This document shows, in pieces, positions 18,938-30,979 of a stretch of 64,000 bases of DNA. The notes under the pieces are model-generated. The model made no database searches. It saw nothing but the letters and a program-made list of their open reading frames with translations, and was not told where the DNA came from. How positions within the stretch are numbered: position 1 is the stretch's first letter; every line of letters starts with the position of its first letter. Position numbers and translations under genes: made by a program. Source of the stretch: Phascolarctobacterium faecium DSM 14760 (GTDB taxonomy: Bacteria > Bacillota > Negativicutes > Acidaminococcales > Acidaminococcaceae); contig NZ_QLTS01000001.1 of NCBI RefSeq assembly GCF_003269275.1, positions 434,001 to 498,000 on the forward strand, read 5' to 3'.

Positions 18938-18988
18938 CTATGACTAATTAATTATATTCTTTTTAACTTACTATGTCAACAAAAACCG

Positions 18989-20266
18989 CTATTTTACTAT
19001 ACCGGGGAGCCATGTAGCTATCTCCGGGAAGAAACACAGCAGCAAAATTTCCAGCGCCATAATAATGCCAAAAGGAATAACACCTTTGATGATCTGTGTC
19101 ATTTTACTATCTGGGCTGATGCCCTGCAAAACAAACAGATTCATTCCAACCGGCGGCGTGATAAGAGCCAGCTCCAGATTGATCAACATCACAACATTGA
19201 ACCAGATCGGATCGAAGCCCAATTTCATGATAATAGGATACAAAATCGGCAAAGTGATAAAAATAATGGAGATAGATTCCAAAATACATCCCAAAACCAA
19301 CAGCAGAATATTAATTGCGATAAAGACTATCCACCGGCTGGTTTCCATTTCGGCAACCAGGCTCGTCAAAGCCTGCGGAACCTGCAGAATAGTTAAAACG
19401 AAACCAAATAAAGTTGCGCCGATCATAATCGCGAAAATCATCGAAGTCGTTTTGACTGTATCCAGCAAAATTTCCGGCATATCCTTCAGACCAAGCGTAC
19501 GGTAAATAACAAAAGTAATAAACAAACTGTAAACCGTACCTATAGCAGCAGCTTCAGTAGGAGTAAACGCTCCCGTATAAATACCACCAACGACAAGCAC
19601 CGGCAGCAGCAGTCCCCAAAAAGAACTTCTTAGCGCCTGAAAACGTTCCTCCCAGCTGGCCGCTTCCTGCAAAGGCAGCTTTCTTGAGCTGTAAACAACC
19701 ACAGCAATAAACAGCAGTGTCAAAATAACCCCCGGTACAACGCCGGACATAAACAACTGACCTACCGATTCACCAGTAATAGCGCCATACAAAATCATTG
19801 GTATCGATGGCGGGATCAGAATGCCTAAGGTACCACCTGCTGCAACAGCTCCTAGAACTAACGTTCTTTCATAACCACGGGACAGCATCTCAGGAATGGC
19901 AATAGCACCAATAGTAACGGCGCAGGCAACAGACGAGCCTGTAATCGCAGCAAAAATTGCACAGGCAAAAACTGTAGCTACACCTAACCCCCCAGGCAAA
20001 TGACGCAGCCATTTATTGCCCAGCTCAAATAAATCGTTGCCTACTTTGCCTGTTAAAAGAATCTGGCTCATTAAAATATATAACGGGACAGCCGTTAACA
20101 CGAAATCATCCAAAGATTTGTAAGCCAAAATCGGTATCTGGGCCAAAGAAGATCCTCCGCCCATAAAAGCAAACATACCGAAAAGTCCCGCCGTTCCCAG
20201 TGAGAAGGCTACCGGCAGTCCCAAAACCAAAAGTCCCAGTAAGATAACGGTAAAAATAACAAGCAT
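18989..20266 (-). CDS. dctM: TRAP transporter large permease subunit (DctM type)
   Basis: This 425-residue membrane protein of about 11-12 hydrophobic segments is the ion-driven transport channel of a tripartite TRAP system. The family signatures are clear: VTIGAIAIPEMLSRGYERTLVLGAVAAGGTLGILIPPS in several blocks, TPTEAAAIG near 240, and the LELALITPPVGMNLFVLQ region near 360. The ATG at 20266 follows GGAGG by nine bases and lies one base after the dctQ stop; an upstream in-frame ATG at 20293 lies inside dctQ and is rejected. It is last in the lyase-dctP-dctQ-dctM operon. Confidence 0.94.
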   Translation of the reverse strand: MLVIFTVILLGLLVLGLPVAFSLGTAGLFGMFAFMGGGSSLAQIPILAYKSLDDFVLTAVPLYILMSQILLTGKVGNDLFELGNKWLRHLPGGLGVATVFACAIFAAITGSSVACAVTIGAIAIPEMLSRGYERTLVLGAVAAGGTLGILIPPSIPMILYGAITGESVGQLFMSGVVPGVILTLLFIAVVVYSSRKLPLQEAASWEERFQALRSSFWGLLLPVLVVGGIYTGAFTPTEAAAIGTVYSLFITFVIYRTLGLKDMPEILLDTVKTTSMIFAIMIGATLFGFVLTILQVPQALTSLVAEMETSRWIVFIAINILLLVLGCILESISIIFITLPILYPIIMKLGFDPIWFNVVMLINLELALITPPVGMNLFVLQGISPDSKMTQIIKGVIPFGIIMALEILLLCFFPEIATWLPGIVK

Positions 20267-20267
20267 C

Positions 20268-20792
20268 TTATTCCGCCTCCTTACTGAATTCACCGCTGCT
20301 GATTTTTTGAATATCTATAAGCAGGGTACGTACAAACTGTAGTAGCAACAGCCCCATACCGATCGGCAGCGACATCTGAGGAATCCACATAGGAGTTCGC
20401 AGAGTACTTGGTGAAGTATTATCCATCTCATATGAAAGCAATGCCATATCCAAAGACTGCATTACAAATACGGCACAGAAAAAAATACCAACAATAGTTG
20501 TAAAAAGTTCGATATAACAACGGGTACGTGCTGATAAATGGCTTAAAACAATATCGACATGGATGTGCTTGCCAGCAGCATAAGTAACGGACATCCCTAA
20601 AAAACCTGCTACTAAAACACAATATACAGAAAGTTCTATTGACCATTCTGTCGGCGCATTGAACAAACCTCGCATCACAACTTCATAAAAGACCATCAAC
20701 GCCGGCAGCAGCAATAGAATGCCGGCAATGACGCCAACTGCTTTAGTAATAGCGTTCAAAAATTTTTCATAGACCTCGAGCGCGCTTTTCAA
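20268..20792 (-). CDS. dctQ: TRAP transporter small permease subunit (DctQ type)
   Basis: This 174-residue protein has four hydrophobic segments (about 15-40, 50-70, 90-115, 135-155), the size and topology of DctQ subunits. Family features include the FLGMSVTYAAGKHIHVD block near 60. It pairs with DctM to form the membrane part of the TRAP transporter. It lies between dctP and dctM; a hairpin separates it from dctP. Sequence conservation of this subunit is always low, so the call rests on topology and on its neighbours. Confidence 0.9.
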   Translation of the reverse strand: MKSALEVYEKFLNAITKAVGVIAGILLLLPALMVFYEVVMRGLFNAPTEWSIELSVYCVLVAGFLGMSVTYAAGKHIHVDIVLSHLSARTRCYIELFTTIVGIFFCAVFVMQSLDMALLSYEMDNTSPSTLRTPMWIPQMSLPIGMGLLLLQFVRTLLIDIQKISSGEFSKEAE

Positions 20793-20825
20793 GTCTTTTT
20801 CCTCTCATTCTTTTCCAAAATAAAA

Positions 20826-20849
20826 ACCGCTGCCGCTTATGGCAGCGGT
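20826..20849 (-). terminator. attenuator hairpin between dctP and dctQ
   Basis: ACCGCTGCC and GGCAGCGGT form a perfect nine-base-pair stem with a six-base loop. On the minus strand TTTTTATTTT follows. Placed inside the operon, it should let only part of the transcripts reach dctQM and so give more binding protein than permease. Confidence 0.75.
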
Positions 20850-20864
20850 CAATTAAGAATTTAT

Positions 20865-21890
20865 CTATTGTTTACTGCATATTTCGATCAATTCCTTACC
20901 AAGATCCCCAGTATGTTTAACAAAAATATCCCAAACTGGTTTAGTAGCAGACTGCCATGCCGGCAGCTCAGCCTCAGGAACAACGTAAACCTGCATACCT
21001 TTTTCTTTTAATTTCTCTAAAGCAGCCATATCCTCTGCTTTAGCATTTTTACGCAGTTCGTCACGCACTTCATTTGCAGCGTCGGTTACTATTTTTTGCT
21101 GTTCCGGAGTCAGTTTTTGAAAAGATTTTTCATTCATCGCCAGAATAAACTCAGGATAAGCATGATTAGTAATAGTCAGATATTTGGTAACTTCAAACAT
21201 TTTACGGTCATACATAGCTGTAGTTCCAGAAGTTTGTCCATCAACAACACCGCGCTGAATGGCCATATAAACTTCACCTGATCCCATAGTTACAGGAGAA
21301 GCACCAAGTGCTTTAATCGTTTCTGAAGGCAGCTCACCATAACCACGCAGCTTCAGTCCTGCAAAATCCTCAGGTTTAGTAATTTCCTTTTTGCTGTTAG
21401 CGAACTGCACAAAGCCATAATCAGCCCAGATCACAGGACGCACACCCTTCTTCTTCAATTCGCCTGCTAATTTATCACCCAAGCCTCCGTCGATGGCATG
21501 ATCGACTTTTTCATAACTTGGGAACAGAAACGGTACGTCAAAAACTTCCATTGCCGGAATAACAGTTGACCACATTGCTGTGGAATTAAGCCCCATATCA
21601 ATGCCACCAGACATAATTGCGTCATTCATACTTTTATCGTTGAACAGCTGTCCGGAAGGATAGATGTTCAGTGTAATAGTGCCGTTGGATTTTTCAGTAA
21701 GCTTTTTATTAAAAGCCTCCATTCCCTGGGCCAGCGGATGCGCCGTTGGCAAATTGTGAGCCAGTTTCAAAGTCACCTTTTCGCTGCCGGCAGATTTTTT
21801 ATCTCCGCCCCCACCGCAGCCGGCCGTTACTGCCAATGCCATAATCATAGCGGCAGCCAAAGTAGTTTTAAACATTTGGGACATTTTCAT
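20865..21890 (-). CDS. dctP: TRAP transporter substrate-binding lipoprotein (DctP type)
   Basis: This 341-residue extracytoplasmic binding protein has a signal peptide with lipobox VTAGC, so it is predicted to be lipid-anchored; many TRAP binding proteins are soluble instead. The DctP fold shows KLAHNLPTAHPLAQG near 40, the ligand-Arg block GLKLRGYGELPSETIKALG near 160 and VYMAIQRGVVDGQTSG near 190. The Arg of KLRGYG is expected to bind a carboxylate. The ATG at 21890 has GAGGTG six bases upstream; the ATG at 21899 overlaps that site. It lies 20 bases after the lyase gene under the T-box leader. Substrate unknown, probably an organic acid. Confidence 0.94.
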   Translation of the reverse strand: MKMSQMFKTTLAAAMIMALAVTAGCGGGGDKKSAGSEKVTLKLAHNLPTAHPLAQGMEAFNKKLTEKSNGTITLNIYPSGQLFNDKSMNDAIMSGGIDMGLNSTAMWSTVIPAMEVFDVPFLFPSYEKVDHAIDGGLGDKLAGELKKKGVRPVIWADYGFVQFANSKKEITKPEDFAGLKLRGYGELPSETIKALGASPVTMGSGEVYMAIQRGVVDGQTSGTTAMYDRKMFEVTKYLTITNHAYPEFILAMNEKSFQKLTPEQQKIVTDAANEVRDELRKNAKAEDMAALEKLKEKGMQVYVVPEAELPAWQSATKPVWDIFVKHTGDLGKELIEICSKQ

Positions 21891-21910: not shown

Positions 21911-22777
21911 TTATTTATAGAGTTTCTCCAGCTTCATATAATCATCAAGACCGATAAACCTGTTAAAATCAGTAAAATGCATCATTTTATCTTCATAGGC
22001 CTTAGTCGTCCCCGTTTGATGCAGCACTGTCATTGCTTCTTTAAAAGCCTGCGTAATGACGTATAAGGCACTGCAGGGCCAGAACACTATTTTAAATCCT
22101 ATATTTTCCAAATCTTTTGCAGTCAGGTTCGGTGTCCTGCCGCCTTCGATCATATTAGCTATCAGTATGGTATCTGGAAAAGCTTTCGTAACAGCTTCTA
22201 ATTCTCTTATATCCTGCGGCGCTTCTATAAACAAAGCTTCAGCGCCGTTATCTAAATACAATTTGCCGCGTTCAACAGCATCCTCCAGTCCATTCACAGC
22301 CCTCGCATCAGTTCTGGCAATCAGTAAAAAATCCTCGTCAGTTCTGGCATCAGCAGCTGCCCGCAGTTTTTTCGCATGCTCAGATGCATCTATGACCTGC
22401 TTACCGACCATATGTCCACAACGTTTAGGCCATACCTGATCTTCAAAAAGCACTGCAGCTGCTCCGGCTTTTTCATATTCCTGCATCGTCCTCCGTACGC
22501 TTAACGCATTTCCGTAACCAGTATCACCATCGGCAAATACCGGTAATTCTGTGGCATCCACAATACATTTCACAGCCTGCACCATTTCAGTCATCGAAAG
22601 GTAACCTACATCCGGCTGCCCTAATCTAGAGGCAGCGATACTATAACCTCCCATAACCAGTGCATCAAACCCTACTTCTGCTGCAATTTTTGCCGTCAAA
22701 GCATCATAAACACCCGGCAAAACCAAAATCTCTGACCTCAGCAGACGTTCACGCAACATTTTACGCTGCTTGTTCAT
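21911..22777 (-). CDS. isocitrate lyase/PEP mutase superfamily lyase (methylisocitrate or dimethylmalate lyase-like)
   Basis: This 288-residue TIM-barrel enzyme belongs to the Mg2+-dependent isocitrate lyase/PEP mutase superfamily. Visible features are LPGVYDALTAKIAAEVGF near 19, the metal-binding DGDTGYGN near 87, FEDQVWPKRCGHM near 118 with the catalytic Cys of the KRCGH motif, and IARTDAR near 160. The Cys argues for a C-C lyase (2-methylisocitrate or 2,3-dimethylmalate type) rather than PEP mutase; oxaloacetate decarboxylase is the alternative. The ATG at 22777 follows AAGGGAGGGG and is preferred to the frame opening at 22831, which lies inside the T-box terminator. It is first gene of a T-box controlled operon with dctPQM, so its substrate may be what the transporter imports. 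Confidence 0.85.
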   Translation of the reverse strand: MNKQRKMLRERLLRSEILVLPGVYDALTAKIAAEVGFDALVMGGYSIAASRLGQPDVGYLSMTEMVQAVKCIVDATELPVFADGDTGYGNALSVRRTMQEYEKAGAAAVLFEDQVWPKRCGHMVGKQVIDASEHAKKLRAAADARTDEDFLLIARTDARAVNGLEDAVERGKLYLDNGAEALFIEAPQDIRELEAVTKAFPDTILIANMIEGGRTPNLTAKDLENIGFKIVFWPCSALYVITQAFKEAMTVLHQTGTTKAYEDKMMHFTDFNRFIGLDDYMKLEKLYK

Positions 22778-22811
22778 AAATTCCCCTCCCTTGCTGCCCA
22801 ACAAATTCAAC

Positions 22812-23052
22812 AAAAAAGCCCCTACCGGCATAGCCGATAGGGGCGTTAAGTACGCGGTACCACCCTAAATTATACTCTGAGGCCTTTAACGCAGCCCTGC
22901 GCTTTTCCCTACATTCGCCCTCAGAAAAAGAGTTCCTGGGTGAGAGGACTTATTTCCACGCTTACCGGCTCGCATCTACCGCCGGCTTTCTGAAAGCCTT
23001 CCACTGTCCATTCCCAGTCATAACCTGTAACCTGATGATTTGTCGAAACATT
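22812..23052 (-). promoter_or_regulatory. T-box leader, best specifier reading CUC (leucine)
   Basis: On the minus strand the invariant AGGGTGGTACCGCG is at 22853-22866. It is followed by a terminator, GCCCCTATCGGC/GCCGGTAGGGGC, with a six-T tail (22812-22844). Upstream a stem III (CTGAGG/CCTCAG) and a stem I can be folded: CTGGG/CCCAG and GGAC/GTCC flank an internal loop with CTC at 22942-22944 followed by A. Below it is a kink-turn-like ATGA/GGAAC, and above it the distal AGAAAGCCGGCGG block. CUC reads leucine. The T-box bulge is UGGU, which pairs with a tRNA ending ACCA (discriminator A, as in tRNA-Leu). Uncharged tRNA would allow readthrough into the lyase/TRAP genes. Confidence 0.9.
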
Positions 23053-23058
23053 GAAATA

Positions 23059-23087
23059 AGTATAACAACACCTTAACACTATGTCAA
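23059..23087 (-). promoter_or_regulatory. promoter of the T-box operon
   Basis: On the minus strand TTGACA (23082-23087), 17 bases and TATACT (23059-23064) form a near-consensus promoter. Transcription should start near 23052. Confidence 0.88.
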
Positions 23088-29177: not shown

Positions 29178-29702
29178 TCACCGGTTCTTACTTTTTTTAG
29201 TCTCCTGCATCGCTTTGATCATAGGTTTGATCCCGCCGCTCTGCAGAATGTTCATAATATAAGGCGACATCGGAACAGCTGCAGCTGTTGCTCCCGTAGT
29301 CAGGTTTTTGATTATTCCAGCCTCAATATCAACCTCTACTTCATCACCCTCTGCAATAATTTTCGTGATCTCGCTGCAGGTAATAACAGGTACGCCTAAA
29401 TTAATAGCATTACGGAAAAATATCCTGCCAAAAGATTCTGCCAGTACAGCTCCAGCACCAACTGCTTTCAATGTTATTGCCGCATGCTCACGCGATGAAC
29501 CGCAGCCAAAATTAGTTCCGGCCACAATGATATCTCCCGGATCGAAGTTTTTTACAAAGCTCTCATCAGCGCCGTACATCGCATATTTTTTTATATCTTC
29601 TACATCCGTATATTCTACAAAACGACCCGGATAAATCTGATCTGTATCAATATTTTTCCCAAAAACAAATGCTTTGCCCCTGACTTTCGTTTTCATTACC
29701 AT
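29178..29702 (-). CDS. leuD: LeuD-type 3-isopropylmalate dehydratase small subunit
   Basis: This 174-residue swivelling-domain subunit of an aconitase-superfamily hydro-lyase works with LeuC. KAFVFGKNIDTDQIYPGRF lies near the N-terminus, NFGCGSSREHAAITLKA near 66 and ESFGRIFFRNAINLGVPVI near 92. The loop after PGR, which influences substrate choice in this superfamily, reads FVEYTD here. This makes a related substrate (citramalate, dimethylmaleate or homocitrate type) possible. The ATG at 29702 overlaps the leuC stop (TGATG); an ATG two codons later also fits. leuA and leuB are not in the window. Confidence 0.85.
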   Translation of the reverse strand: MVMKTKVRGKAFVFGKNIDTDQIYPGRFVEYTDVEDIKKYAMYGADESFVKNFDPGDIIVAGTNFGCGSSREHAAITLKAVGAGAVLAESFGRIFFRNAINLGVPVITCSEITKIIAEGDEVEVDIEAGIIKNLTTGATAAAVPMSPYIMNILQSGGIKPMIKAMQETKKSKNR

Positions 29703-30979
29703 CACCGTCCATTCCCGCAGTCGCCGGTTTTCAAATATACAGCCGGATCAGTAATTTTCCCCTCTAATGCCGAAGCTGCCACAGCAGCAGGAGAGGCCAG
29801 AAATATCCTGCCATCTACATGTCCCATTCTACCGGGGAAATTACGGTTAGTAGAACTTATGCAAACCTCTCCTCCTGCAAGCATCCCCTGGTGTACTCCC
29901 AAACAGGCGGCACAGCCCGGAGCCGTTATCGTGGCTCCTGCCTGCATCAAAGTTTGGATATACCCAAGCTCCATTGCATCTTCCATTACCTTTTTAGAAG
30001 CAGGCACGACTATCATCCTCGTTGTTTTAGGAATATGCCTGCCTTGTAAGATCTGTGCTGCTACAGCCAGATCCTGCAGACGACCGCCAGTACACGAACC
30101 CAAATAAGCTTCGTCAACAGGAGTGCCGGCATATTTGTCCAATTCAAAAACATTATCAACACTTGATGGTGCCGCTACCTGAGCCCTGATTTTACTTACG
30201 TCATACGTAAGCTCCGCAGCATATTGAAAATCAGTATCTGTTTCATAAATTTTATAAGGTCTTGCCACACAGTTGTGCAAATATTCCATAGTGACAGCAT
30301 CAGGCTGGATATAGCTGGTTTTACAACCCATCTCCGTTGACATATTACACATACACATTCTTTCGGAAATACTCAACCCATTTACAACAGGTCCTGCAAA
30401 TTCTACCGCTTTATAAACACCGTAATCTGCACCCAGATCACCTATGATATGCAGAATGATATCCTTGGCAAAAACACCCGGCTGCAGCTTACCAACCAGA
30501 TTGATCCTGAAAATCTCCGGTACCATGAACCACAGCTTGCCAGTAATCATAATCGTCGCCAGATCAGTAGCGCCAACACCGGTCCCAAAAGCGCCAAAAG
30601 CTCCGTGAGTCGTCGTATGCGAATCAGTGACAACTACTATCTCTCCAGGATGTACCCAACCTTTATCGGCCAAAACCTGATGGCAGACACCCTGATCTAT
30701 ATCCATCAATTTTTCGATACCCTGTTCAAAACAGAACTTTCTGAACTGCTTATGATTTTCAGCCTGTGTTATCGTAGCACAGGGAGCGTAATGATCAAAA
30801 AACATCACGATCTTATCAGCATCAAAAACCTTTTCACCGCCCATTTCATAAAAGGAACGTACAGTCTGCAAATATAAATCGTTGATTCCTGCAATATCCA
30901 CGTCGCAATTAACTATCTCGCCTGTTGCGACCTGATGTTTACCAGCTTTTTCTGCCAATAATTTTTCAATAGCATGCAT
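29702..30979 (-). CDS. leuC: LeuC-type 3-isopropylmalate dehydratase large subunit
   Basis: This 425-residue large subunit of the two-subunit LeuC/homoaconitase type carries a [4Fe-4S] cluster on Cys296, 356 and 359 (LGSCTGGR and APGCAACLG). HTTTHGAFGAFGTGVGATDL is near 121. Isopropylmalate isomerase turns 2-isopropylmalate into 3-isopropylmalate in leucine synthesis. Relatives act on dimethylmaleate, citraconate or homoaconitate, and these cannot be told apart here. It lies 43 bases after a haloacetate-dehalogenase-like gene and overlaps leuD, forming a three-gene operon divergent from a LysR regulator. The absence of leuA/leuB nearby leaves room for a catabolic role. Confidence 0.86.
   Translation of the reverse strand: MHAIEKLLAEKAGKHQVATGEIVNCDVDIAGINDLYLQTVRSFYEMGGEKVFDADKIVMFFDHYAPCATITQAENHKQFRKFCFEQGIEKLMDIDQGVCHQVLADKGWVHPGEIVVVTDSHTTTHGAFGAFGTGVGATDLATIMITGKLWFMVPEIFRINLVGKLQPGVFAKDIILHIIGDLGADYGVYKAVEFAGPVVNGLSISERMCMCNMSTEMGCKTSYIQPDAVTMEYLHNCVARPYKIYETDTDFQYAAELTYDVSKIRAQVAAPSSVDNVFELDKYAGTPVDEAYLGSCTGGRLQDLAVAAQILQGRHIPKTTRMIVVPASKKVMEDAMELGYIQTLMQAGATITAPGCAACLGVHQGMLAGGEVCISSTNRNFPGRMGHVDGRIFLASPAAVAASALEGKITDPAVYLKTGDCGNGR

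Follow-up and report, generated by a model that had tools for sequence, protein, structure and literature searches.

A leucine-type T-box precedes a lyase and TRAP transporter operon of Phascolarctobacterium faecium that may scavenge a branched-chain precursor

From its sequence, the leader preceding a lyase and TRAP transporter operon of P. faecium DSM 14760 is a leucine-type T-box, and comparison with relatives suggests that the operon may scavenge a branched-chain precursor under leucine control. In our preferred reading, to which we give an even chance of being right, the TRAP transporter would import 2-isopropylmalate and the lyase would interconvert this compound with 2-oxoisovalerate and acetate. 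The operon lies in a window of 64,000 nt (the whole stretch of DNA that was analysed; positions 434,001–498,000 of contig NZ_QLTS01000001.1). Sequence comparisons document the T-box and its Leu specificity, the structure and conservation of the operon, its fusion with leuACDB and its match with genomes lacking LeuA and IlvCD.

The features of the window described here all lie on its minus strand, and those of the operon are ordered promoter, T-box leader, terminator, lyase gene, dctP, dctQ and dctM. A preliminary description of this DNA had reported a near-consensus promoter and a KRCGH lyase followed by dctP-dctQ-dctM, and both hold. The promoter is of the sigma-70 type (23087–23059, TTGACA-17-TATACT, 11/12), with an extended -10 (TG before the -10), and occurs at the same place in relatives. 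The lyase gene (21911–22777) is followed by dctP, for a solute-binding lipoprotein (20865–21890; PF03480, 282 bits; TIGR00787), dctQ, for the small membrane subunit (20268–20792; PF04290), and dctM, for the large membrane subunit (18989–20293; PF06808, 367 bits). The DctP, DctQ and DctM families therefore occur together in one operon, and the three subunits are shared with other DctPQM TRAP transporters, each scoring above its Pfam cut-off; however, DctP belongs to a distinct subgroup of binding proteins, 27–29% identical to the nearest solved ones. A terminator-like hairpin between dctP and dctQ (20825–20850) probably tunes the dctP:dctQM ratio and could yield more binding protein than membrane subunits. 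Just downstream of dctM, ahead of a TypA-like GTPase gene, there is a perfect 12/12 promoter of the sigma-70 type (18951–18979). The window also contains a second LeuC/LeuD-like pair (29178–30979), near genes for an alpha/beta hydrolase and a LysR regulator, which we rejected as a partner of the operon: it is outside the neighbourhood conserved in relatives and scores under the equivalog cut-off for LeuC (isopropylmalate isomerase; 451 vs 611 bits).

A cmscan search matched RF00230 over the full model (1–219), from Stem I to the antiterminator, at positions 22836–23030 (84.5 bits, E 6.5e-19), in agreement with the full T-box leader first described. Because this score is just under the curated gathering score of RF00230 (93 bits), a default Rfam scan listed nothing for the window, and the leader became visible only with an E-value threshold. 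The T-box sequence (AGGGTGGTACCGCG / AGGGUGGUACCGCG; 22853–22866) contains the UGGU bulge noted before, which fits a discriminator A and is conserved in relatives. It is followed by an intrinsic terminator (22818–22844) with a 12-bp stem and a T run (-23.3 kcal/mol, z -5.7); terminator and antiterminator are mutually exclusive, with CCCCU common to both. The textbook loop-E (AGUA/GAA) is absent from the specifier loop, and when the whole leader was folded freely by MFE, the T-box fold was not reproduced and the result was no better than shuffles (z +0.5). We therefore base the structure on the covariance model together with the covariation seen among relatives.

The specifier codon was proposed to be CUC (Leu), an assignment that is confirmed here. 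An alignment of 20 homologous leaders from several families showed that CTC (22942–22944) is invariant, the next base being always A or G and preceding a helix. In our leader the context is GUCC-U-CUC-A-CCCAG, in which the conserved purine is A22941 and CCCAG (22940–22936) pairs with CUGGG. The four counted pairs of this helix are formed in all 80 cells of the 20 leaders, and three of them change on both sides, one appearing as U-A, C-G, A-U and G-C; with the partner shifted by one column, pairing is at most 65%, and in 500 shuffles neither the observed percentage of pairing nor the covariation score was reached. A minor departure occurs in two leaders outside this alignment, L047 from Sporomusa ovata and L074/L117, where C replaces the purine. 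We rejected a Ser (UCU) specifier, because CUC is the only reading that is invariant and that keeps the conserved purine ahead of the helix, and also because the sibling ilvN-ilvC leader of the same genome has an identical CUC-A-CCC context. Likewise, TBDB gives priority to the bases two to four from the bulge end, the position matching CUC here, and CUC is the specifier in 74% of Leu T-boxes (PMC7778990). For the ilv-leu leader of B. subtilis, CUC is cited as the experimentally shown Leu specifier (Marta 1996, as cited in PMC2494555).

The genome of P. faecium contains 13 T-boxes. Among those whose leaders were read, CUC (Leu) was found for leuS, leuA and ilvN-ilvC, matching the specifier proposed here, AUC for ileS and the ilvN-ilvB operon, and GUC for valS; further T-boxes precede serA, thrS, pheS, trpE, glyQ and an ECF transporter. 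The leader of the lyase operon shares its architecture, CUC, the UGGU bulge and the choice between terminator and antiterminator with the known Leu-specific T-boxes (RF00230; ilv-leu leader of B. subtilis), but these have a synthetase, ilv-leu genes or an amino acid permease downstream, whereas here we found a lyase and a TRAP importer. The T-box-controlled transporters compiled by Wels et al. (2008; PMC2494555) belong to ABC, APC, DAACS, LIVCS, MFS, NHAC and NSS, with TRAP absent; as here, their specifier predicts the transporter substrate, although the cargo predicted for our operon is a precursor acid and not an amino acid. In the open-licence literature searched, we found no T-box-controlled TRAP transporter and no TRAP transporter for 2-isopropylmalate.

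The unit formed by T-box, lyase and TRAP genes is widely conserved. Lyase homologs with 64–100% identity are almost always found in the arrangement T-box-lyase-dctP-dctQ-dctM, in many genomes of Acidaminococcaceae, in S. ovata DSM 2662 and relatives, in other families of Negativicutes and in a MAG of Peptococcaceae, and the lyases of this unit form a single clade (support 100/97). In a close relative (G011; loci L016 and L052), the lyase and TRAP genes are kept and the T-box is lost, leaving a plain promoter and a terminator-like hairpin.

A link to leucine synthesis is evident in genome G317 (L113), where one CUC T-box precedes leuA, leuC, leuD, leuB, lyase, dctP, dctQ and dctM. In this genome leuA, leuB and leuC are above the equivalog cut-offs, leuB and the lyase gene are a few bases apart, and we found no terminator-like site between genes on the operon strand. 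Co-transcription with leuACDB is indicated in G317 only; in the P. faecium genome the leu genes are not adjacent to the operon. Additionally, a CUC T-box directly precedes dctP, without the lyase, in the g17 genomes, G020 and G034, indicating that the leucine response centres on the transporter. The P. faecium genome contains leuA, leuB, leuC, ilvN, ilvC and ilvB, together with a gene of the dihydroxy-acid dehydratase family, and uptake would therefore not be essential there.

The situation is different in seven genomes of family f32, from two genera: g91, with four genomes (including one that is 99% complete in a single contig), and g92, with three. None of the seven had a match to the IlvD/EDD, LeuA/CimA or IlvC C-terminal families, yet all keep the LeuC and LeuB families and an IlvE-family aminotransferase. 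In the f32 genomes examined, leuC and leuB are above the equivalog cut-offs, with leuD a few bits short, and the leaders of leuCDB read GAA-CUC-G (Leu). With no synthase upstream of leuCDB, 2-isopropylmalate must come via uptake or the lyase. The three g92 genomes contain the Leu-type lyase-TRAP unit; the four from g91 contain, at separate sites, a lyase from a sister clade and a dctP with 53–55% identity, and the leaders of both genes read GUC (Val). Over 20+ leaders, Leu and Val are the only specifiers on this unit, suggesting a compound common to both amino acids, either 2-oxoisovalerate itself or a metabolite with which it is interconverted. The suggestion that the TRAP system imports a leucine precursor, a branched 2-oxo or hydroxy acid, is thus supported by the presence of lyase-dctPQM inside the leuACDB operon of G317, by the CUC T-boxes on dctP alone and by the genomes that lack LeuA, IlvC and IlvD and keep leuCDB and TRAP genes; as for the putative ligand, the GUC specifiers of one genus suggest a precursor shared by Leu and Val, and 2-isopropylmalate is a better candidate than ketoisocaproate or another 2-oxo acid.

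The deduced lyase belongs to the isocitrate lyase/PEP mutase superfamily (PF13714, PF00463) and is similar to petal death protein; the superfamily fold and the KRCGH catalytic motif are present in its sequence and predicted model (pLDDT 82), which fits lyases at Z 30–32; the best PDB relative is 1zlp. Its scores are below the cut-offs for 2-methylisocitrate lyase, PrpB (TIGR02317, 286.9 bits; equivalog cut-off 354.4), and carboxyvinyl-carboxyphosphonate phosphorylmutase (TIGR02319, 244.3 bits; cut-off 420). Petal death protein is the closest by sequence (about 40% identity) and shares the fold and catalytic layout, although its motif is KKCGH instead of KRCGH; both proteins have NMIEGG, whereas PrpB has NITEFG. 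The fold, a KRCGH-type motif and the catalytic layout are also common to 2,3-dimethylmalate lyase and methylisocitrate lyase, with 31–36% identity (35–36% to 3fa3/3fa4 in the 2,3-dimethylmalate lyase comparison). By analogy, the enzyme should reversibly convert some 2-alkylmalate into a small carboxylate and a 2-oxo acid, and the set that most likely fits its regulation is 2-isopropylmalate, 2-oxoisovalerate and acetate. More distant relatives (about 45–52%; L129, L130 and L131) are found beside LeuC/LeuD-like genes and MFS or SSS-like transporters, in clusters where some genes read like PrpR-type sigma-54 activators and that are probably catabolic for acids of the 2-alkylmalate type. We set these distant lyases aside as a guide to the substrate, since they are in separate branches and have no T-box.

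Under the preferred reading, a shortage of leucine would lead uncharged tRNA-Leu(GAG) to base-pair with the leader at its CUC specifier and its UGGU bulge, and the terminator would not form in the tRNA-bound leader, allowing production of the lyase and the TRAP importer. The latter would most likely import 2-isopropylmalate or a close 2-alkylmalate, which is plausible in that 2-isopropylmalate has been found outside cells, in the yeast exometabolome (PMC5478895). LeuC-LeuD-LeuB and IlvE would then convert imported 2-isopropylmalate to leucine, and the lyase would most likely interconvert it with acetate and 2-oxoisovalerate, the last precursor that valine and leucine share. The Val specifiers of g91 count against this reading, since they tie the unit to valine as well as leucine. 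Its main weakness, however, is that a purely cleaving lyase in a genome containing LeuA, such as that of P. faecium, would run a futile cycle under leucine starvation. For this reason, we keep as alternatives the condensing direction, another 2-alkylmalate substrate or a role in clean-up. The predicted model of DctP is weak (pLDDT 58), so that pocket comparison was set aside, and the structures that match it belong to generic TRAP binding proteins, a set that excludes no ligand class.

The condensing direction leads to a proposal that we judge unlikely, in which the transporter would import 2-oxoisovalerate or 2-oxoisocaproate and the lyase would be an acetyl-CoA-independent isopropylmalate synthase that saves or replaces LeuA. 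Production of 2-isopropylmalate from 2-oxoisovalerate and acetate would exactly fill the LeuA gap in g92, next to leuCDB; acetate is plentiful for fermenters, and reactions of the isocitrate lyase type are reversible. Import of a 2-oxo acid would also agree with 4p8b and 4oan, two of the solved binding proteins nearest to DctP by sequence, which were reportedly solved with 2-acetolactate. Nevertheless, the g91 lyase is under a Val T-box, where consumption of 2-oxoisovalerate makes no sense, and LeuA is present in most carriers. Clean-up, which we regard as quite improbable, would have the lyase splitting dead-end 2,3-dialkylmalates to a 2-oxo acid while the transporter recovers leaked 2-alkylmalates, on the premise that LeuA can misuse propionyl-CoA to yield 2-isopropyl-3-methylmalate. 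It would account for co-expression of the lyase with leucine synthesis in the G317 operon and for the identity of the nearest solved lyase relatives, petal death protein and 2,3-dimethylmalate lyase, but g92 and g91 both have the lyase although they lack LeuA, and it counts against this proposal that these LeuAs are not known to misuse propionyl-CoA.

The operon could also import an ordinary C4–C6 dicarboxylate for central metabolism, the T-box being merely a tie to general amino acid starvation; DctP is indeed nearest to generic DctP-type binding proteins, but the restriction of specifiers to Leu and Val in 20+ leaders and the fusion to leuACDB make this very improbable. Hardly credible, in our view, is a novel pathway that makes Leu and Val out of branched fatty acids, in which the lyase would join glyoxylate with isovalerate into 3-isopropylmalate, or with isobutyrate into 3,3-dimethylmalate, prior to a LeuB-type oxidation. 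This chemistry is analogous to a reversed isocitrate lyase, would account for a Leu and a Val form of the lyase, with CUC and GUC T-boxes, and needs LeuB and IlvE, both of which are kept; conversely, it does not need LeuCD, although f32 retains these genes behind a Leu T-box, has no evident source of glyoxylate and leaves unexplained the T-box-dctP arrangement without lyase.

Scavenging of 2-isopropylmalate, if true, would add a new kind of cargo for TRAP transporters and a new transporter class to the T-box regulon, would explain why bacteria resembling Leu/Val auxotrophs keep only leuCDB and ilvE, and predicts a trade of a leucine intermediate among members of a community. More tentatively, and with the balance of probability somewhat against it, 2-isopropylmalate could be a public good among anaerobes, imported by TRAP transporters upon shortage of Leu or Val, converted to leucine by LeuCDB and, by the lyase, to 2-oxoisovalerate for valine, with some species having dropped IlvCD and LeuA. 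The presence of the lyase/TRAP pair in the culturable S. ovata makes its function directly testable.

Two further observations concern T-boxes at other loci. In L012 (G000:C8:8799-9052) and L136, a T-box whose specifier is probably UGG (Trp) lies upstream of an ECF-type transporter operon encoding a membrane protein of about 209 aa, ABC ATPases and a transmembrane component, which is likely a tryptophan importer. Additionally, many leaders from family f32 (L151, L154–L158, L160–L163, L165, L167, L168, L170–L172, L177, L179 and L180) have a single Stem I and, after it, two antiterminator cores, 61–128 nt apart, such that a two-core leader is one sensor with two serial decision points. This organization was found in about two thirds of the loci checked and in 0 of 13 in the genome of P. 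faecium.
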